Assembly: GCA_026770575.1 (NCBI GenBank)
Contig: MU657201.1
Location: 214,578-236,599, forward strand
Direction of reading: 5' to 3'
DNA from: Pelagophyceae sp. CCMP2097
Taxonomy: Eukaryota; Sar; Pelagophyceae
DNA: 22,022 bases
The notes below the pieces were generated by a model. It saw only the letters and a list, made by a program, of their open reading frames with translations. It did not search any database and had not been told where the DNA came from. Shown piece by piece: positions 793 through 18,534 of the stretch. The position numbers were made by a program, and so were the translations under genes. Position 1 is the first letter of the stretch. Every line of letters starts with the position of its first letter.

Positions 793-960
793 CAGGGCAG
801 GAAAAGGGTCCGCGGATCCGGGTCTAGGTCTTCGACTCGGCCCAGAGCCGAAACCCGGACCAGTGCGGCCGAGGCCAGACCCGAACCCGGACCCGCCTAA
901 ACCCGGACCCGAGGCAATAGGCCCGGGCATGGCCCGGCTCCGAAAGAAAGAGGACGGACC
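793..960. repeat. GACCCG-rich low-complexity DNA
   Basis: The array ends in GGGCAGGAAAAGGGTCCG and passes into copies of ACCCGGACCCG-like sequence. A block reading CCTAAACCCGGACCCGAGGC (about 895-915) recurs in the same orientation near 3236-3265. The GGGCAGGAAAAGGGTCC junction recurs inverted near 3398-3416. Nothing here looks coding. Confidence 0.7.
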
Positions 961-1001
961 CGCGTCGCTGAAATATATGCTGAATTAAAACGAGACAAAT
1001 G

Positions 1002-1219
1002 CACATTAGTCGGCGTTGGTCGCACATCAAATCCGGAGGAGCTCAATAGTGTCTATCGCAAAAAACTTGGACCACATTAGTTACCCGGCTGTTCACATGA
1101 GGATGCCTCGTCGAACGGGGGTTCATATAAGTGGGGAGCCTGTCCACATTGGGGGTGCACGTGTCCACATTTGTCGCGAGCGTGTCCACGTCAGTGGGTG
1201 TCCGTGGCACCACATCAGC
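1002..1219 (-). repeat. Left subterminal array of CACATTAG-type motifs
   Basis: Nine variants of CCACATYAG (minus strand CTRATGTGG) start at about 1002, 1023, 1073, 1094, 1124, 1145, 1166, 1187 and 1211. The steps are mostly 21 bp, with one of 30 and one of 50. The layout mirrors the right-hand array, suggesting protein-binding sites such as transposase sites rather than coding repeats. Confidence 0.7.
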
Positions 1220-1274
1220 GCGTCCTTCCCTGCTCTCACAGAGCATTTGGCATAGGCCTGAGACGCGCGACCTC

Positions 1275-2619
1275 ATGTCCGACGACGGCGACGCCGCGCG
1301 CGCCGAGAAGTACCCGTCGTCGGAGGAGGGCGGCGATGGTAGCGACGAGGACATGCCGCCGAAGTCGCGCCAGAAGAAGATCCGGAAGAAGGGGGACAGC
1401 GATGAGCTCATCTCGTATCAGAACGCGCAGCAGGCTGGCCTCGATGGCCGCAAGCCCCTCGAGCTCTCGCAGACGGTCGACCACTGCCTCCGGGACAAAA
1501 TGGAGTTCGAGTCGAGGTCCGTCTTTGTCTGATAATGTTCCGAGTGTTCCCCCAGTTCCTCGGTGGGGATCGAGCAGCATCAAATAGGTGGGCAGCCGAG
1601 CTCTACATCACCGAGATCGCGGCGCGGGACGACAAGATTTTCCTCAAGAACGGCTTCGCGAGCAGCTTCGACGGTGGCCTCTCAAAGTCGAAGGACAACT
1701 TCCGCGCGTCTATCGGCATCCGCGACCCGAGAGCGTGGACGCGCGCCTCAAGCTCGGCGACGTCGACGTCGACTGGCTCGACGACTCCGACCCGCCGCGG
1801 ACCGGCCCCGACGTGAGTACGCCGCGGCTGACGGGGAAAGCGCCGGCGACGCCACCGCGCGGAGCGCCGGCGTCGTTGAGCGGCAACGGCGCCGTCGAGC
1901 CCAGCTACCAGTTCTCGAACCTCGGGCCCGGCGCCACGAGGGGCGACATCGTTTTTCTCACCAAGGGCATGGGCGCCATGGTCGACCGCCTCGAGGCCGA
2001 GGTGTTTGTCTCCCCGTCGACGGGCTTCTGCGGCTTCGACTCTCTGGCCGCCATGTACCGCGAAATCATCTCGGCGGAGGAGGATTGGACGGCCGGAGAC
2101 GTGCGCGCTGCGCTAGGGCAAATCTACACGAAGCACATCGACTCGCTGCTTGCGTTCGAGACGAAGTACCGGCTGCTCGAGCAGGGCAAGCCGCGGCGGG
2201 AGGCCGAGAGGGCGCTGCGCCTCCGCGGCGACAAGCACAAGAAGTCGTTCCGCGAGATGGGCACGCTCCCGCAATCGTACTGGCTCAAGGCCACGGACAT
2301 TAAGGGCTTCGCCATCGAGTTCGGCCTCAACGTCTTCGTGGTCTCCACTGAAGAGTCGCGCGTCGTCGACGGCCAGCACGTCGAGAAGGTCACCGTGTTG
2401 AAGTACCTGAGCACCGTCTCGCCGCCGGGGCTCATCTCCATCGACCTCGAGAAGATGGGGATGGTCGGGTTCTCGAGAGGGGAGGCCGTCGTCGCTGAAG
2501 AAGACATCGCCCTCATCTACAACGGCTCGCACTACAACGCCCTGTCGTGGCACCGAGCGGACGAAGACGTCGAGGGGCACGACGAGGCCCACTTTGAAGA
2601 CGATTTCGCCGACGAGTAG
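1275..2619 (+). CDS. OTU-like cysteine protease (putative), with a frame break
   Basis: Exon 1 is 1275-1516, beginning MSDDGD and acidic/lysine-rich. A 71-bp GT-AG intron (1517-1587) removes an in-frame stop, and exon 2 resumes with RWAAELYITEIAARDD. Near 1725-1735 the coding frame moves by one base (IGIRDP in one frame, ESVDARLKLGDVDVDW in the next), then stays open to the stop at 2617-2619. The C-terminal 220 residues resemble an OTU peptidase: a nucleophile-like GFCGFDSLA followed about 165 residues later by a histidine motif NGSHYNALS, the usual OTU Cys...HY spacing. The acidic residue usual before the OTU cysteine is absent. Only a 26-bp intron could repair the break, shorter than any other intron here, so this is a decaying gene or a sequencing error. 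It lies wholly inside the candidate transposon. OTU proteases remove ubiquitin; that role here is inference. Confidence 0.55.
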
Positions 2620-2859
2620 GACCCGCCCTAGGCCGCCGTCGCGCTCCCGCACGGGCCTCGGTGTCCACCGGCCCGGCGCGCGGCCGGCGGCGGCTGTGCT
2701 TCCTTGCGCTCGCCCGCAGACCCGCAAGGGCATCCGCTGCGCTGCCATCTTCGCCGCGCCCCTCCGTCGACGCAACCCCAAATCTATACCTAAGCCTATC
2801 CGCCGTCGACGAATCACTCCTCCGCCGCTGTCACGCAAGAGACTCAGAGATCGTCCTCA

Positions 2860-3054
2860 CTGATGTGGAATGTGGCGTCACTGATATGGTCACCGACATC
2901 ACTGATATGGACATCTTCATGCCTCATATGGACCGTGATTTTAGAGCCCACCCTAATGTGGACGTGGTGTCCCTGATGTGGACAGCCGCGCCACTGATAT
3001 GATCTTAAATCCAGAGTGCTAACTAATGTGGTCATAAAATCCCACTAATGTGCA
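2860..3054 (+). repeat. Right subterminal array of CTRATRTGGA motifs
   Basis: Nine variants of CTGATGTGGA/CTAATGTGG start at about 2860, 2881, 2902, 2923, 2953, 2973, 2994, 3023 and 3044, with steps of 20-21 bp broken by steps of 29-30. Measured inward from the tip, the offsets (0, 21, 50, 71, 91, 121, 142, 163, 184) nearly match the left array (0, 21, 71, 92, 122, 143, 164, 185, 209). They lie in opposite orientation, as in elements with subterminal transposase sites. Confidence 0.7.
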
Positions 3055-3070
3055 TAGGACCCAATTAAAA

Positions 3071-3229
3071 CCTTCTTACTAAGGTTTAAACGTTTTCGAC
3101 TTTGGGATCTTCCGATATCTGATACAATTGTATCACGACTGTGTGCGAAGCACGTTGACTCGGACGTGCATTCCACCTTTCAGGTGGAACACGAGCTCTT
3201 TGTTCACCCGTCCGCACCGCGACTGACCC
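3071..3229. other. AT-richer spacer with two palindromes
   Basis: There is no gene. It holds a perfect 16-bp palindrome TGATACAATTGTATCA at 3120-3135 and a hairpin TTCCACCT-TTC-AGGTGGAA at 3171-3189. Base composition differs clearly from the GC-rich DNA on its right. Confidence 0.6.
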
Positions 3230-3545
3230 TTGACCCTAAACCCAGACCCGGACCCGAGGCAAAAGGGCCGGACCCGAGACCCGGTCCCTCAAAGGCCGAG
3301 GCCAGAGCCGAGTCCCGGAACAACCCCGGGTGAGCCCGGATGGGCGGACTTTGACCCGGACCCTAACTCGGTTTTCACGGGTCCGGGTCCGGACTCGGAC
3401 CCTTTTCCTGCCCTGGCCGCATGCGGCGCAGCCGCATTGTGCATCCGCAGCAGGCGGCGCAGCTGCCGCAGGCCTCGCAGCCGCCGCAGGCGACGTTGCT
3501 GGAGGCGCAGCCGTCGCAAACGGCGCAGCCGCCTCCTGCTGCAGC
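3230..3545. repeat. Second GACCCG / GCGCAGCC block, partly inverted copy of the left block
   Basis: GACCCG-rich DNA (3230-3400) is followed by CGGACCCTTTTCCTGCCCTG (reverse complement of the junction near 790-815) and then a short GCGCAGCCGCC array (3420-3545). The order is the mirror of 1-960, so the mobile unit sits between two facing copies. No coding signal is visible. Confidence 0.65.
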
Positions 3546-7045: not shown

Positions 7046-9997
7046 ATGCTCGTGGTCGGCCGCATTGCGGCTGCCGCAGTGCGTCGCTGCGCAGTGCGGC
7101 GCTTCGCGCACGGCAACGCGGAAAGAACGGACCTATACATACGCAACCTGCCGCCCGCGGCGACGGCGGCTGAGCTGCGGGCGTTTTTCGAGGTGGAATG
7201 TCCCGTCACTAAAGTTATAGTGCCCGTCAATGACGCGGGCGCGGCCAAGGGATATGCCTTCGTCACTGTCGAAGCAACCAGCGCCGCGCGCTGTGTCGAA
7301 ACTCTCGACCGGAAATTTCTAAACGGGACGCCCGTCTTCATCCAGCTGCAGCGCGCGGACGCGGGGCCGCGCGGCGGCGTGCAGCAGCCGCGCGGCGGCG
7401 TGCAGCAGCCGCGCGGCGACGCGCGGGAGCCACGACGCGGCAACTTAAAGGAGTCGCGCGGCAACTCAAAGGAGCCGCGCGGCAACGCGCAGGAGCGCGG
7501 CAACGCGTGGGAGCCGCGCGGCAACGCACAGCCCTCGCGTTTTGAGCCCTGCGGCCGACAGGCTTCGATTGTTATAAATCAACAGCTCATGGCGAGCCAG
7601 AGCGCAGGCGATCTTTTAGCCCTCTTCGCGTACAAGGCTCCCGATTTCGATTCGCGCAATTTGGCCACGGCGCTGCACAAGCTCAGTAGCTTGAAGAAAA
7701 CGTTTGAACCAGCTTCGGAAAGGCTGTTTTTTCAACTCGCGGACCAAGCGGCGAAAAGCGTCGGAAATGGCTGGGAGCCGCGCGGCCTCGCGTCCGCCGT
7801 TTACGGCGCTGCAAAAGTCGGCCGGGGCGCGCCATTGTTGTTTGAAGCGGTCTCTTTTGAAGCTGTTAAGAAGATGAAGTTTTTCAACGCGCAGGACCTG
7901 GCAAACACCGCGTGGGCCTTTGCGCGCGCGGGTTTCCAAGCGCCGATGTTGTTTGAAGCGGTGGCTGCGGAAGCCCCAAAGAAGATGGAGACGTTTAACC
8001 AGCAAGAGCTGGCCAACACGGTCTGGGCCTTTGCGACGGCCGGCGTCGAGGCGCCGGCTTTATTTGAAGCGATTGCTTCAAAGGCTTTTAAGGCGATAGC
8101 GACGTTCGTCGCGCAAGACCTCGCCAACACCGCGTGGGCCTATGCGACAGTGGGGTTTGAAGCCACTGCGTTATTCCAAGCCATCGCTTTGGAATCATCA
8201 AAGAAGATTGCGACGTTCAACGCGCAAAACCTGGCCAACACTGCGTGGGCTTTTGCAAAGGCGGGCGTGGAAGCGCCTTTATTGTTTGAAGCGGTCTCTG
8301 TCGAAGCCTCGAAGAAGATTGCGACGTTCCACCCGCAGAACCTCGCCAACACCGCGTGGGCGTACGCGACGTCTGACACGCATTCCAAAACGCTCTTCGA
8401 GGTCGTTTCCGCGGAAGCAATAAAGAAGATGGCCATGTTCAACCCGCAAGAGCTCGCCAACACGGCGTGGGCCTTTGCGACGGCGGGCGTCGAAGCGCCG
8501 TTGCTTTTTGAAGCACTCGAAAAAGAGTCGGTGCAGAAGATGGCGCAGTTCAACGCGCAATCTTTAGCCAACACGGCGTGGGCCTTTGCGACGGCGGGCG
8601 TCGAAGCGCCGTTGTTGTTCAAGAACATCGCTTCCGAGGCTGTTATGAAGATGGTGACGTTCAACTCGCAAGAGCTCGCCAACATCGTCTGGGCTTACTC
8701 CACGGCGGATGTCGAGGCGCCGGCTTTATTCGAAGCTGTCGCCTCTCAAGCAGCAAAGAGGATCGCGACGTTCAACCCGCAAGAGCTCGCGAACACCGCC
8801 TGGGCTTACGCGACGGCGGACGTCGAGGCGCCATTGTTATTCGAGGCGGTCGCCGCACGAGTGTCCGAGAAGATTGCGGATTTCAATTCGCAGAACCTCG
8901 CAAGCACCGTGTGGGCTTATGCAACAGCGGGCGAGGCGCACCGGCCGCTCTTCAAGGCCGTTGCAGCAGAAGCATCGAAGAAGATCGCGACGGCCGATTC
9001 ACAGATCTTAGCAAACACCGCCTGGGCGTATGCAACGGCGGGCTTTGAAGCGCCGGCGCTCTTCGAAGCCATCGCCGCGGAAGCTGCGAAGAAGATGGAA
9101 ACGTTCAACCCGCAGGAGCTCGCAAACGCATTGTGGGCGTATGCGATTGCGAATGCCGAGGCGCCATTGTTTTTCGAGGCGAGTGCGTCGAGGGTCGAAG
9201 CGAGGATCCACGACTTTAGTCTCGGCGGGCTCTCGCAGCTGCACCAAGTCTCTATGCACCTCCAACTCGAGGCGCCGCGGCACGCGTTGGCTTTGGTTTT
9301 GAGTCGGCACGAGGCCGAGCTGCGTGCGGCTTATATTCGGGAAGAGCCGAGGCCGTCACGGTCGCAGCGCGAAGTCTCCGAGGCTCTCTCTAGAATAGGG
9401 TGGGCGCACGACTTTGAGCACGTCACCGCCGAAGGCCTCTCTTTGGACGTCGCCAACCCAAAGACAAAAGTCGCAATCGAGTTCGACGGCCCGGCGCACT
9501 ACCTCGCGGGCGATACACGCGTCCTCGACGGCCCGTCCGACTTCAAGGGCCGGCTGCTCCGCCGCCTGGGCTGGGACCTGGTCCGCGTCCCGTACTTTGA
9601 ATGGATGGAGCTCGAGTCGGAAGATGCACAAGATGCGTACTTGCGGGGCTGCATCGCCGATGCGCGCACCTCCGACGCGCGCGGCGCATCCAAAGGCGCT
9701 TGCGGCGCATCCGAAGGCGCCACGACGCAGCCGGCAGAGCGCGGCGAGGCAGCGCCGGCGGACGAGGCTGCGAGCCATGGCGGCGACGCGGCTGCGCGGT
9801 GCGGCGACGCGGCTGCGCCGACGGCCGAGCGCGGCGGCGGCGACGTGGCCGAGGCATCTCACGGTGGCGGCGCGGCGTACTCGCAACTAACGGTCAAAGC
9901 CCTCAAACCAATGCTCAAGGCCCGAGGCCTCTCGCAGGCCGGCCTCAAAAAGGACCTCGTGCAAAGGCTCGAGGAAGACGACCGACGAAAGAGCTGA
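7046..9997 (+). CDS. Organellar RNA-binding protein: RRM, 37-residue repeats (OPR/HPR type), RAP, SAP
   Basis: One 983-residue exon. The N-terminus MLVVGRIAAAAVRRCAVRRF is arginine/alanine-rich without acidic residues, like a mitochondrial presequence. An RRM (about 27-105) shows RNP2 LYIRNL and RNP1 KGYAFVTV. An Arg/Gly-rich linker (about 110-165) precedes thirteen exact 37-residue repeats (245-725) of the form PQELANTAWAYATAGVEAP plus LLFEAVA and KKIATFN. LANxxWAxA is the signature of octotricopeptide/heptatricopeptide repeats, helical solenoids that bind organelle RNA. A RAP domain (about 800-860) has VAIEFDGPAHY, a lysine/arginine-rich strand and GWDLVRVPYFEW. The C-terminus (about 945-980) reads LTVKALKPMLKARGLSQAGL, a SAP motif. 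Likely role: processing or stabilising mitochondrial transcripts. It is tail-to-tail with pICln, 135 bp apart. Confidence 0.9.
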   Translation: MLVVGRIAAAAVRRCAVRRFAHGNAERTDLYIRNLPPAATAAELRAFFEVECPVTKVIVPVNDAGAAKGYAFVTVEATSAARCVETLDRKFLNGTPVFIQLQRADAGPRGGVQQPRGGVQQPRGDAREPRRGNLKESRGNSKEPRGNAQERGNAWEPRGNAQPSRFEPCGRQASIVINQQLMASQSAGDLLALFAYKAPDFDSRNLATALHKLSSLKKTFEPASERLFFQLADQAAKSVGNGWEPRGLASAVYGAAKVGRGAPLLFEAVSFEAVKKMKFFNAQDLANTAWAFARAGFQAPMLFEAVAAEAPKKMETFNQQELANTVWAFATAGVEAPALFEAIASKAFKAIATFVAQDLANTAWAYATVGFEATALFQAIALESSKKIATFNAQNLANTAWAFAKAGVEAPLLFEAVSVEASKKIATFHPQNLANTAWAYATSDTHSKTLFEVVSAEAIKKMAMFNPQELANTAWAFATAGVEAPLLFEALEKESVQKMAQFNAQSLANTAWAFATAGVEAPLLFKNIASEAVMKMVTFNSQELANIVWAYSTADVEAPALFEAVASQAAKRIATFNPQELANTAWAYATADVEAPLLFEAVAARVSEKIADFNSQNLASTVWAYATAGEAHRPLFKAVAAEASKKIATADSQILANTAWAYATAGFEAPALFEAIAAEAAKKMETFNPQELANALWAYAIANAEAPLFFEASASRVEARIHDFSLGGLSQLHQVSMHLQLEAPRHALALVLSRHEAELRAAYIREEPRPSRSQREVSEALSRIGWAHDFEHVTAEGLSLDVANPKTKVAIEFDGPAHYLAGDTRVLDGPSDFKGRLLRRLGWDLVRVPYFEWMELESEDAQDAYLRGCIADARTSDARGASKGACGASEGATTQPAERGEAAPADEAASHGGDAAARCGDAAAPTAERGGGDVAEASHGGGAAYSQLTVKALKPMLKARGLSQAGLKKDLVQRLEEDDRRKS
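7778..9220 (+). repeat. Thirteen 111-bp coding repeats
   Basis: The unit length is 111 bp throughout, with no gaps. Repeats 7 and 8 carry an identical run of more than 45 bp starting at 8456 and 8567, including silent sites, pointing to recent duplication or gene conversion. The first unit (7778-7888) is the most diverged. Confidence 0.9.
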
Positions 9998-13407: not shown

Positions 13408-14457
13408 ATGGGCGACACGCCGCCGGCCGCCGTGCGCAAGCCGTGCTGCGTCTGCGACGCGCCGGAAGGCAAGCAGTGCACCAAGTGCAAATCGCGCCAC
13501 TACTGCTCGAAAAAGTGCCAGCTCGTCGACTGGAACGAGGGCGGGCACAAGGCGCAGTGCAAGCAGCTCGCCATCAAATTCCAGGACCGCCTCCTCGACG
13601 AGCTGATGCCGCCGAAGAAGGTCAAGGAGGAGACGGCCATCGTCGAGGACGTCGCGCCGGTAGCTGGTTTAAAGGCGGCGGCGCGCTTATCGGCTGTTGG
13701 AGGGACGGCAGTCGTCAAGGCCAGTGCCCCGAACGACGATGCGCCGGACTGGCGCGGCACGTGCGCCATCTGCCTGGATGTGCTGCCGGTCGAAGCTCAC
13801 CTGCAAAGATTCTACGACTGCTGCTGCAAGAGGCTTTGCATGGAATGCTGCCTTAAGTGCAAGCAGTACGACGACCGATGCCCGCTCTGCCGAGGGCCAG
13901 GTCCCAAGTCGCATGCCGAGAGGGTGCGCCGGCTGCAGACGCACTCGGACAAGGGCATTGCCGAGGCACAGTTGATGCTTGGAAGCGCATATTGCAACGG
14001 TGAGATGGGCCTCAAACAGAGCTGCAAGCGAGGGTTCCAGCTGTACGAGCTCGCGGCGGCGCAAGGACACGCAATCGCTCAGTTTGCATTGGGAGATTGT
14101 TATGATCGTGGGGAAGGCGTGAAGATCAACTCAAAGACGGCCGCGCAGTGGCATCGACGTGCAGCCGACCAAGGCTATCATAACGCTCAAGAAAACCTCG
14201 GCCTCAAGTTTTTTAAGGGCGAGGGCGTGGTGCAGTCGTACGAGGAAGCCGTGCGGTGGATCGGGCTCGCAGCAGCGCAGGGTAACACAAACGCGCTCTA
14301 CAACCTCGGCGCGTGTTATGAAAACGGCCACGGCGTGCCGCAGGACTACGCCGAGGCGCTGCGCTGCTTCAAGCGCGCGGCGGCCAGGGGGCACGCCGGC
14401 GCGGCGGCGGCGGTCGCCGAGGCCGAGGCGCGGCTGCCCGCCAATCGACCGAGGTGA
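13408..14457 (+). CDS. MYND zinc finger, RING-like and Sel1-repeat protein (copy 1, intact)
   Basis: A single exon of 349 aa. A MYND finger at residues 12-52 shows CCVCDAPEGKQCTKCKSRHY, CSKKC and the HKAQC end. A RING-like Cys-rich finger at about 120-160 begins CAICLD, has a CCCKRLC core and closes CPLCR. Four Sel1-type repeats (about 186-335) follow, e.g. AIAQFALGDCYDRGEGV and TNALYNLGACYENGHGVPQD, forming an alpha-alpha solenoid. MYND and Sel1 modules mediate protein-protein contacts, and the RING-like finger suggests ubiquitin ligase activity, though the His position is unusual. The family is abundant in stramenopile algae with unknown substrates. The stop lies in the first unit of a 26-bp tandem repeat. 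A diverged copy is at 17416. Confidence 0.88.
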   Translation: MGDTPPAAVRKPCCVCDAPEGKQCTKCKSRHYCSKKCQLVDWNEGGHKAQCKQLAIKFQDRLLDELMPPKKVKEETAIVEDVAPVAGLKAAARLSAVGGTAVVKASAPNDDAPDWRGTCAICLDVLPVEAHLQRFYDCCCKRLCMECCLKCKQYDDRCPLCRGPGPKSHAERVRRLQTHSDKGIAEAQLMLGSAYCNGEMGLKQSCKRGFQLYELAAAQGHAIAQFALGDCYDRGEGVKINSKTAAQWHRRAADQGYHNAQENLGLKFFKGEGVVQSYEEAVRWIGLAAAQGNTNALYNLGACYENGHGVPQDYAEALRCFKRAAARGHAGAAAAVAEAEARLPANRPR

Positions 14458-15879: not shown

Positions 15880-17026
15880 TGCCTCAGCGAGGCAGGGTAC
15901 GGCCATCCACAGCGGCAGTCCCTGCCAGAGGATGGCATTCTTCGAAAACTGCCTACGACAGCAACCGCATCGACGGCGGCACGCGCCGACGGCGTCGCAG
16001 AAAAGGCCGCGGGCGCGCCGGCTCTGGGCTCTGCAAAGACGCACGCGTAGTGAACCCTGCGCGCCGAAGCCGACGCGTTGCGAAACGACCGGTGCCACAC
16101 GGCGCCTAGCGCACCGTCGCCGCGCACCGAACGCCCCGGCCACCGCCCGGTCACAAGCGCCCGGTTACAAGACAAACGATCAAAAGGCAAACGATCAAAA
16201 GACAACCAATCACAAGATGCCACACGCACGGTCGAACACGACGACGTCGCCGCGCTTGGCCAAAACCGTGCGGTCGCCGCCGTCGAGCGAACGGACTTGC
16301 AGCGTGCCGTTTGCTTCGCAGACGTCGTCCAACGGCGCCCACGTCGAGACAAACGCGTAGCGGTCGTCCGCTTCCGCACCGCCGACAAAGGCCAGCTGCT
16401 TGGCGTCGTCGCGGTGCCAGTCGAACTCCGTCCCGGGTGCGCCGGGTTCCTTGACGACGTAAATCTCAGACAGCAAACGCCTAAGGTTCGAAGGTCAAAG
16501 GGCGTCACACACGCAGCAAGAGACCCGTCGTATCATCACATCATCCGATTCCGACGCCGCGGTTTTGGGACGGTGTTTCGCCGTCGGCCGCAGCGCCGCC
16601 GAGCGCGCTTTGGGCGGCGGCGGCGAGTTTCTTGAGGACGACGAGCTCCGCCAACCATCCTTGCTGCGTCTCCGCCTCGCACCGCAGCACCGCGCGGCGC
16701 AGCGTGCGGTACGCCCAGGCTTCGGATCGCGCGGGCGAGTCGCGGCCGACGCCCGCGCGGCCGAAGGCGTCGAGATTGTTTGCCTCATTTTTGTACGCCC
16801 GTCTCGCTCGGTCGCACTCTTCCGAAAGCACGTCGACCTCGCACGCGGCCAGGTAGCCGCGCAAGACGACGTAGCCCTCGACGCCGAACGCGGCTGCGTC
16901 GCAGTTCAACGCCGGCGAAGCGGGGAAGGCGGCGGCGCCGCCGGCCACTTCGTCGTCGCCGTCCTCGCCCACAACGCCGTCCTCGCTTTCTACATTCGCC
17001 CGAGGCCGCTTCAGAGGCGGAACCAT
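15880..17026 (-). CDS. Phytanoyl-CoA-hydroxylase-like (PhyH) Fe(II)/2OG dioxygenase module
   Basis: Exons 17026-16572, 16480-16230, 16105-16045, and a fourth starting at 15952; phases agree. The N-terminal third has FGVEGYVVLRGYLAACEVDV, the usual opening of PhyH proteins. Exon 2 carries TEFDWHRDDA (HxD iron ligands), WAPLDDVCEANGTLQV and GDVVVFDR. Exon 3 joins it as RAVWHRSFRNAS (distal His) and SARRVHYA (arginine for 2-oxoglutarate). Exon 4 continues QFSKNAILWQGLPLWMAVP, a common PhyH ending. All expected cofactor residues are present, so it should be active; the substrate (lipid, small molecule or protein) cannot be told. No organelle signal is obvious. Its start is head-to-head with MYND copy 2. 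No stop codon closes exon 4 before the JmjC region, so the end given here is the end of recognisable homology, not a stop. Confidence 0.8.
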
Positions 17027-17415
17027 CGCCCCGCGCGGCCGGCGCCAGCGCCGGGCGGCCGCGGCCAGAGAGCGCGAAGCGCTTTGGCGCCGCTTCGGCC
17101 CTTGGGGTTGTCCGGGAAGGCCCCTCGCGCCCGGGGGAGGTCCCGAGGGCTCGGCCAAAACTCGACTTGGCTCGGCCGGAATTCCGCAACCGCACCGAGG
17201 TCGTCGACCGCACTCAGCGACGCAGTGATCGCACGGGCACGCGATCGGACTCCGGCGCTCGCCGCGCCGGTGCCGCCGAGGCCCCGCCGGCGCCCGCCCC
17301 GCCGCGGGCCGGCCGACGCTCCGTTGGGTGTGGACTCGTCTTCGAATCTCGACTCGGGCCGAGTGCGCACGAGGCATCAAACGACCAGCCGACCGGCGAG
17401 GCCACCCGCTCCAAA
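17027..17415. promoter_or_regulatory. Divergent promoter region between PhyH-like gene and MYND copy 2
   Basis: 389 bp between opposing start codons, GC-rich and purine/pyrimidine-mixed, with no recognisable core element. The last 50 bp (GGCATCAAACGACC up to CCAAAATGGGC) are related to the sequence before MYND copy 1 and were probably duplicated with the gene. Confidence 0.45.
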
Positions 17416-18534
17416 ATGGGCAACGCGCCTCCGGCCGCCGCCCACGCCTGCTGCGTCTGCGGCGAGCCGAGCGGCCAGCACTGCACCGAGTGCAAGTCGC
17501 GCCACTACTGCGGCAAGACGTGCCAGCGCAAGGACTGGCGCGAGCGCGGGCACAAGGAGCAGTGCAAGCAGCTCGCCACCGCGTTCCAGGACCGCATGCT
17601 CGAAGCGCTCATGCCAGAGAAGCTGCAGATTACGGAGGAGCCCGTCATCGTCGTCACGCCGGCAGCTGGTTTAAAGGCGACGCTGCGCCGAGCGGCGGCG
17701 GCGGTCAAGGCCAGCGCGGTGAACGACGACACGCATGCCTGGCCCGGCATGTGTGCAATTTGCCTGGACCTACTGCCATTCCAATTTGACCAGCAAACAT
17801 TCTACTCTTGCTGCTGCAAGACGATTTGCACGGAATGCCACGATAAGTGCCTGCAGCACGACGAGCGCTGCCCGCTCTGCCGAACGTCGGCCCGCAGGTC
17901 GGAGGCCGAGTGGGTGCGCCGGATGCAGAAGCACGCGGACAAGGGCAACTTCGACGCGCAGGTGCACCTCGGAGACACGTACCGTGACGGCGACATGGGC
18001 CTCAAGAAGAGCTTGAAGCGGGCGTTCCAGCTGTACCAGCTCGCGGCGGCGCAAGGGCATGCAGAAGCGCAGTTTGCGGTTGGACGCTGTTTTCAGCAAG
18101 GCTGCGGCGTGAAGATCGACCACAAGACCGCCGAGCAGTGATACCGGCGCGCAGCCAAGCAAGGCTATCCATTCGCACAGTACAGCCTCGGCTTGATCTT
18201 CTACAACGGCAAGGGCGTGGCCCAGTCGTACGACAAAGCCGTCAAGTGGTACCGCCTCGCCGCGGCGCAGGGCCTGCCGGACGCGCTCTACAACCTCGGC
18301 ATGTGTTATGAATACGGCGAAGGCGTGCCGGAGGACGACCACGAGGCGCTGCGGCTCTACTAGCGCGCCGCGGCTAAGGGGGACGCCGACGCCGCGCGGG
18401 TCGTCAAACTGCTTTCAGAGCGAATCTCGCGGCAACCGGACGGACGCAGAGAAGCCGACGCCTACGCCACGGTCGGGCTCGTCGTCGTGGCCCTCGTCTT
18501 CGCAGTCTGCATGGCCATGCGCAGGTCTGGGTAA
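17416..18534 (+). pseudogene. MYND, RING-like and Sel1-repeat protein copy 2, interrupted by two stops
   Basis: The region aligns along its whole length with copy 1 in one frame: MYND (CCVCGEPSGQHCTECKSRHY), RING-like finger (CAICLDLLPFQFDQ to CPLCR) and Sel1 repeats. TGA at 18139-18141 replaces the Trp of copy 1's AAQWHRRAA, and TAG at 18361-18363 stands where copy 1 has Lys in CFKRAAA. The frame is otherwise open to TAA at 18532-18534 and, unlike copy 1, ends in a hydrophobic anchor TVGLVVVALVFAVCMAM. Truncation at the first stop would leave both fingers and about one and a half Sel1 repeats (241 aa), which could still be made. Intact frame between the stops suggests recent inactivation, readthrough, or sequence error. 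Confidence 0.75.

Follow-up and report, generated by a model that had tools for sequence, protein, structure and literature searches.

A probable Mutator-like transposon family with nine subterminal sites at each end and an OTU-like reading frame in Pelagophyceae sp. CCMP2097

We analysed a 22,022-nt stretch of DNA from Pelagophyceae sp. CCMP2097 (hereafter the window; C38:214578-236599, in a host genome of 66.2 Mb and 638 contigs) and found that it holds a 2071-bp mobile element belonging to a multicopy family (Table 1). We hold with good confidence that this element is a deleted, non-autonomous copy of a probable Mutator-like element (MULE), that its two subterminal arrays are most likely transposase sites, and that it could be moved in trans. 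This reading draws on the multicopy ends, 9-bp target duplications, empty sites, the deletion structure, transposase-like coding sequence in relatives and the conservation of the sites.

Table 1. Coordinates of the element, its parts and its surroundings in the window
Feature	Position	Strand	Basis or remark
Host repeat holding the element, ~540 bp, multicopy, CAGGGCAGGAAAAGGG inverted tips	793..3415		Joined-flank matches, tip comparison
Left target-site duplication AATTAAAAC	983..991		Identical 9-mer at 3063-3071
Non-autonomous element, probably Mutator-like, 2071 bp	992..3062	+	Multicopy ends, flanking duplications, comparison of copies
Left tip GAGACAAATGCACATTAGT	992..1010	+	Sequence and flanks of copies; imperfect inverted match to right tip GGGTCCTATGCACATTAGT
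Left array	1001..1218	-	Sites 1001-1009, 1022-1030, 1072-1080, 1093-1101, 1123-1131, 1144-1152, 1165-1173, 1186-1194, 1210-1218
Putative transposase exon 1 (N-terminus MSDDGD...)	1275..1516	+	Open frame; splice site predicted
Putative GT..AG intron	1517-1587		By reading the sequence
Putative exon 2 remnant, transposase N-terminal part (WAAELYITEIAARDDKIF...IGIR)	1588..1727	+	Cut at the deletion junction; C36a continues here
Internal deletion junction	1727..1728		End of the sequence shared with C36a
OTU-like frame, C-terminal part of the parental protein	1750..2619	+	Cys in TGFCGFDSLA, His in NGSHYNAL
Right array	2860..3053	+	Sites 2860-2868, 2881-2889, 2902-2910, 2923-2931, 2953-2961, 2973-2981, 2994-3002, 3023-3031, 3045-3053
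Right target-site duplication AATTAAAAC	3063..3071		Same 9-mer at 983-991

The host genome was searched with both termini of the element and the copies were aligned, by which the tips and the target duplications were defined. With the left 276 bp as the query, 18 matches were obtained in the 66-Mb genome, and with the right 271 bp, 13, counts that include fragments and cases of one copy in two pieces. The true tips of the window element, set by the target duplications, read GAGACAA... on the left and ...AGGACCC on the right. An earlier note on this DNA had described AATTAAAA at both borders and inverted ATGCACATTAGT tips; both sequences are present, but the former belongs to the longer 9-bp duplication AATTAAAAC and the latter lies 7 bp internal to the true tips. 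MULEs have long terminal inverted repeats, or none in the non-TIR types; the termini of the window element consist of 19-bp imperfect inverted tips plus the arrays, the sites being more alike between the ends than the spacers, which are 41% identical between the left and right arms of the window copy. The 9-bp duplication, different each time, was perfect in seven of the eight copies in which both ends could be read (C38, which is the window copy, C36a, C31a, C31b, C76, C107, C1 and C89) and matched at 8 of 9 bases in the eighth, the diverged 1.2-kb copy C89. Copies with an unreadable right end (C36b) or left end (C471, C11 and C112) were left out of this count.

Empty sites were looked for and found. 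A query made of the joined flanks gave 24 matches in the genome, 2 of them being the window's own flanks, and at all nine of the other paralogous loci that were cut out and aligned, the target was uninterrupted, without the element and in single copy (AATTAAATC in eight loci, AAATAAATC in one). Altogether, the further copies with the same ends, the duplications and the empty sites bear out the earlier proposal of a mobile DNA-transposon family; the findings that it had named as speaking against it, a lack of other copies or ends made of single-copy promoter DNA, were not encountered. We rejected the reading of the arrays as mere promoter or tandem-repeat DNA that is conserved along with one gene, and regard it as practically excluded, since the ends are multicopy and both duplications and empty sites contradict it. 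The window element is nested in a repeat with CAGGGCAGGAAAAGGG tips. Other copies of this repeat were seen at L071, L074, L076 and L077 (three of 508-659 bp, the fourth of 992 bp), and its 8-bp duplication, GCCGCAGG, is perfect in L074, and in the flanks of the window copy 7 of its 8 bases agree; judged by tip and duplication, this repeat looks hAT-like.

When copies were compared, C36a, C36b and C31 proved 99.5-100% identical to the window copy across the long stretches examined, at different loci, and C76 was 96.8% identical. The near-identity of the first three at other sites suggests recent movement. With this family, the Mutator-like lineages would gain a diverged eukaryotic member that has apparently been active recently. 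We also observed isolated ends. A lone right-end piece of 65 bp at C70:162250-162420 (L039) has the direct 9-bp repeat GATTTCAAG on both flanks, as might result from the insertion of one end by itself or from an extreme deletion, and a lone left-end piece at C4 (L023) lies between 7-bp repeats TTGATGC.

Relatives of the window copy hold coding sequence that it lacks. C36a shares with it window positions 992-1727 on the left (736 bp) and 2723-3056 on the right (334 bp) at 99.7% identity, and differs in its interior, which contains a zinc-finger-like region and the N-terminal and first-D part of a transposase. In the window copy, the transposase frame continued past the junction at 1727/1728 stops at 1816. 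The interior of the window copy recurs elsewhere in the genome, in C36b (99.5% identical). C471, a diverged copy that is 78% identical over the shared 3' part, starts inside the transposase at base 1 of its contig and continues through a linker and an OTU-like frame to the right array; its transposase shows a putative D, D, C-x2-H and E, followed by a C-x2-C...C-x-H motif. C11 passes in frame from the transposase C-terminus through the linker. In C471, an in-frame stop precedes the linker and the frame is broken where transposase and linker meet, and in C11 it is broken where the OTU-like part begins; since each of the two copies reads through the break of the other, we infer from both a fused transposase-OTU-like frame, which is whole in no single copy. 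An intact full-length copy was not found among the genome copies.

The earlier note had taken the OTU-like protease for a cargo standing in the place of a transposase. This is not borne out: C36a has a piece of transposase within the same two ends, in C471 a transposase precedes the OTU-like frame and the right end, and in C11 too the OTU-like frame comes after transposase sequence. From these relatives, the window copy is judged to be a non-autonomous internal-deletion derivative, having the same ends and lacking a coding interior that other copies retain. At least three deletion types were distinguished, namely that of C38 and C36b, that of C36a, and that of C76 and C107, in which window position 1391 is joined to 1759. 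Summing the pieces, the parent element would be about 4.2 kb long.

The parent was probably a cut-and-paste DNA transposon of the Mutator-like kind, an assignment that rests on the length of the duplication and the order of the catalytic motifs. MULE duplications are of 8-11 bp and often of 9, the length found in this family. The catalytic motif of MULEs is a DDE triad with C/H between the second D and E, and D, D, C-x2-H and E align in C471 and C432, while the C217 frame has D2, C-x2-H and E. The putative D2 and the C-x2-H are 21 residues apart in all three of these lineages (C471, C432 and C217) and D2 and E are 95, 102 and 95 apart, the catalytic residues having been assigned by eye in alignment rows that are 23-33% identical to C471 (59% for C36a). 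A search of the genome with the transposase gave eight matches, including the related lineages C217 (E 2.5e-18), C432 (7.8e-7), C175 (2.0e-6) and C185 (3.6e-6). In C217, the related transposase-like frame (L054) is followed by an Ulp1 peptidase (Pfam C48, E 6.1e-28). We also observed a further MULE-like transposase lineage with 21 genome matches, many of them partial (C432, C76, C7, C175, C461, C109, C185 and others). The Pfam MULE profile (PF10551) matched neither the host genome nor the transposase pieces; as a control it was found in 3 of 14 genomes, and a very diverged lineage could escape it. MULE transposases have zinc-finger regions, one N-terminal and one, of the SWIM type, C-terminal. 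The SWIM profile gave only a match that falls short of its cut-off, in the relative C432 (E 0.048), and the C-x2-C...C-x-H motif is SWIM-like by eye.

Subterminal repeats are also typical of CACTA elements, and the usual target duplication is of 8 bp for hAT and 3 bp for CACTA elements. In the family studied here the duplication is of 9 bp, perfect in seven copies of eight, and not of 8 or 3, the C-terminal motif looks SWIM-like, and the relative C217 is joined to Ulp1 as MULEs are (CACTA elements also). Against this background, we find it distinctly improbable that the element comes from a different superfamily, hAT-, P- or CACTA-like, equipped with subterminal repeats, even though the Pfam MULE profile is unmatched, such repeats are typical of hAT (PMC10368747), Galileo provides a case from the P superfamily (PMC3688188) and a C/H motif between D2 and E is common to hAT as well (PMC5225508).

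Nine copies of the motif CTRATRTGG per end, in opposite orientation, had been reported earlier, and they are real, being strongly enriched over shuffles in both arms. The right 260 bp contain 6, 9 and 10 sites at no more than 0, 1 and 2 mismatches, respectively (1000 shuffles: means 0.008, 0.27 and 2.0; maxima 2, 3 and 7), and the left 260 bp, on the other strand, 2, 6 and 9 (means 0.01, 0.16 and 1.5; maxima 1, 3 and 6). The nine right sites exclude a tenth, two-mismatch match, 187 bp from the tip, that overlaps its neighbour. Left sites match the motif less well, with two mismatches in three of the nine and one in four. In the wrong orientation, none was detected in either arm at one mismatch and a single one, in the right arm, at two; the interior of the window copy, searched at one mismatch, had no sites. 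Counted from the true tips, the sites are found at 9, 31, 60, 81, 101, 131, 152, 173 and 194 bp on the right and at 9, 30, 80, 101, 131, 152, 173, 194 and 218 bp on the left. The offsets of the earlier note were exact for the left end and, after the first site, one short for the right, the corrected list being 0, 22, 51, 72, 92, 122, 143, 164 and 185. With this correction the two arrays agree even better, site by site, than had been claimed: of the eight right sites other than the one at the tip, seven have a counterpart on the left that is no more than 1 bp off, and random placements (3000) reach at most 4.

The same note had put all sites on one DNA face, two helical turns per step, which is partly right. 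Neighbouring sites are 20-22 or 29-30 bp apart, with two further steps of 50 and 24 bp in the left array. If 10.5 bp per turn is assumed, phase concentrations of 0.53 (right) and 0.59 (left) are obtained; the helical repeat that fits best is 10.2 for the right sites (concentration 0.93, p 3e-4 relative to random) and 10.3 for the left ones (0.76, p 0.03), so that the one-face claim depends on the twist that is assumed. When the right end of the window copy was compared with four diverged right ends, the sites were identical at 70 of 81 bases in each (86%) and the spacers at 83-94 of 149 (56-63%); site masks shifted by 5-8 bp still gave an identity of 0.54-0.80, against 0.86 unshifted, and as the four ends all come from a single subfamily and the window copy itself served to choose the sites, these comparisons are not independent tests. 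Conservation of the left end against C1 was weaker (sites 60 of 81, spacer 98 of 159). In C1, C112, C11 and C471 (with the 3' end placed by eye in three of them), the right sites fall, give or take a few bp, at 30, 81, 101, 131, 152, 173, 197 and 218, a pattern close to the left pattern of the window copy. The spacers drift, yet the register of the sites persists in both arms and from one subfamily to the other, so that the importance of phase can be put to the test, and the ends are clean enough to study how multiple transposase sites are read.

That the sites keep a fixed distance from both tips is consistent with a protein binding them to pair the ends, and by analogy with Hermes and Galileo the sites are most likely bound by the transposase. 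In Hermes, a transposase zinc finger binds subterminal repeats and the exact phase from the tip matters (PMC10368747), and the THAP sites of Galileo are a known parallel for subterminal transposase sites (PMC3688188). The window element resembles Hermes and other hAT elements in its subterminal repeats, but the ends of Hermes are asymmetric, with most repeats unaligned between them (PMC10368747), while most align here. We propose that the coding region of the parent ran from a zinc-finger-like part for DNA binding through a DDE-type transposase (C-x2-H between D2 and E) and a SWIM-like zinc motif to a low-complexity linker and, at the C-terminus, the OTU-like domain. The transposase, by its N-terminal zinc finger, or a partner, would bind the nine inverted sites of each end side by side, in a register fixed from the tip; the two ends would form equivalent complexes, pair and be cut, and insertion would create the 9-bp duplication. 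Because the window copy retains both arrays, it could be mobilized in trans.

It is also conceivable, although rather unlikely in our view, that the arrays are bound not by the transposase but by a regulatory protein of the element or the host, for example a VANC-like anti-silencing protein or a transcription factor. VANDALs are MULEs. They have, like the family described here, short repeated motifs in the non-coding DNA of the element; the VANDAL motifs are arranged in tandem and bound by an element protein, VANC, that is not the transposase (PMC5735166), and the extra OTU-like domain encoded in the present family could be seen in the same light. The VANC21 motif, YAGTATTAY, is however also intronic and intergenic and varies in number between copies (PMC5735166), whereas the sites of the window family are anchored to the tips and absent from the interior of the window copy at one mismatch. 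A register that agrees within 1 bp at seven of eight non-tip sites is explained by end pairing and not by a promoter, and binding by the transposase is thus preferred.

The Cys (TGFCGFDSLA) and the His (GSHYNAL) of the OTU-like frame are invariant in the five copies aligned, and they are set in the C-x-F-x-[SA]-L-A and HYN-like motifs that surround the catalytic Cys and His of OTU cysteine peptidases. Where OTU domains of the host genome have Asp 2-3 residues before the Cys, the frame has Thr or Ser. Pfam (OTU PF02338), NCBIfam and PDB sequence searches left the OTU identity of the frame unconfirmed, as did an hhalign comparison with OTU domains of the same genome (P 0.058, probability 0.9%) and pairwise shuffles (p 0.11 and 0.84), and a single-sequence AlphaFold model had a mean pLDDT of 35 and was unusable for the fold. 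By its motifs, an OTU-like protein is plausible. No relatives of the frame were found in phages, nor, for the frame and three transposases, among viral contigs. Separately, the host genome has 20 Pfam OTU matches, and at least six near-identical canonical OTU domains lie on different contigs (L061, L064, L067, L068, L069 and L070), perhaps another OTU-carrying repeat family.

Since the upstream transposase frame stops at 1816, the OTU-like part of the window copy is probably not made as in the parent. Its dN/dS is 0.97-1.04 in nine between-subfamily pairs, and C38 and C471 differ at 54, 47 and 49 sites in codon positions 1, 2 and 3, which, with a ratio near 1, argues against constraint. When aligned with C471, however, 864 bases of the frame show a single gap, of 3 bp, and 430 bases of the 3' non-coding part show 10 gaps; the identity of the frame is 0.83 against 0.71 and 0.75, and it contains no stop where about 3.8 would be expected from 150 neutral changes (P 0.024; with 75 changes P 0.11). 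An extra 1-base gap was found in C11 and a stop in C1. The selection tests are therefore mixed and suggest a reading frame that is mostly kept, with residues that are hardly constrained.

MULEs tend to acquire fragments of host genes (PMC6446971), and the OTU-like frame could in principle be host-gene cargo, captured in Pack-MULE style and absent from the parental element. We consider this very improbable: the frame has a transposase ahead of it in two copies (C471, C11) and none in four others (C38, C36b, C76, C1), these copies belonging to two subfamilies, and all of its 11 matches in the host genome are on contigs with element-end matches. The same frame following the transposase in C471 and C11 makes gene cargo the less likely description, and a C-terminal domain of the parental protein remains our preferred one. 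If it is a deubiquitinase, such a domain might perhaps keep the transposase, or the chromatin it targets, from being removed or silenced in a ubiquitin-dependent way. Quite unlikely is the fuller version, in which an OTU-type deubiquitinase would form the C-terminus of the transposase of this MULE lineage, and the protein would assemble on a scaffold of nine sites in near-equal register at both ends. With many transposase copies bound, the deubiquitinase would be densely clustered at each end; local removal of ubiquitin from histones or transposase would then be an anti-silencing device built into the transpososome.

The earlier note knew of no described family with this layout, a view that does not hold, as Muta1, Muta5 and MuDR-6_HM, the last from the genus Hydra, have parts of it. 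The window element is a real and tidy case of a layout known from other organisms. Muta1 and Muta5 are MULEs of Aedes aegypti with 8-9-bp duplications and many non-autonomous derivatives, and Muta1 has nine copies of its subterminal repeat inside the terminal inverted repeats (PMC5225508). The likeness thus extends to nine subterminal repeats, duplication length and deletion derivatives. The repeats are of 12 bp with 3-4-bp spacers in Muta1 and of 15 bp in Muta5, within terminal inverted repeats of ~150 bp (PMC5225508), unlike the 9-bp sites of the window element with their poorly conserved spacers and steps of mostly 20-22 and 29-30 bp; an OTU domain goes unmentioned for them in the accessible text of that source. 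For MuDR-6_HM, a cnidarian MULE, an Ovarian Tumour gene is entered as the additional motif or ORF (PMC6446971, Table 1), to which the OTU-like frame of the present element may be a parallel, and the accessible part of that source lists no TIR and describes no arrays for it. Plant MULEs with ULP1 (PMC2528002) likewise encode a cysteine peptidase of the ubiquitin/SUMO kind, theirs being Ulp1 and that of the window family OTU-like; an Ulp1-bearing relative (C217) exists in the host genome too. The occurrence of both domains, OTU-like and Ulp1, beside related transposases in one genome suggests that such elements have acquired ubiquitin/SUMO peptidases repeatedly. Helentrons are also DNA transposons with an OTU-like protease, but of the rolling-circle type with Rep/helicase (PMC4067079). 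Our literature search, in which subscription papers and other wordings were poorly covered, returned no paper that treats a MULE, an OTU domain and a transposase together, and no claim of absence is made.

Other open frames were seen in the window. A large one at 7046-9997 has FAST_1, RAP, RRM and SAP domains and presumably encodes an organelle RNA-type protein. Two more, at 13408-14457 and 16780-18141, each have a MYND finger and Sel1 repeats and are probably a local duplication.
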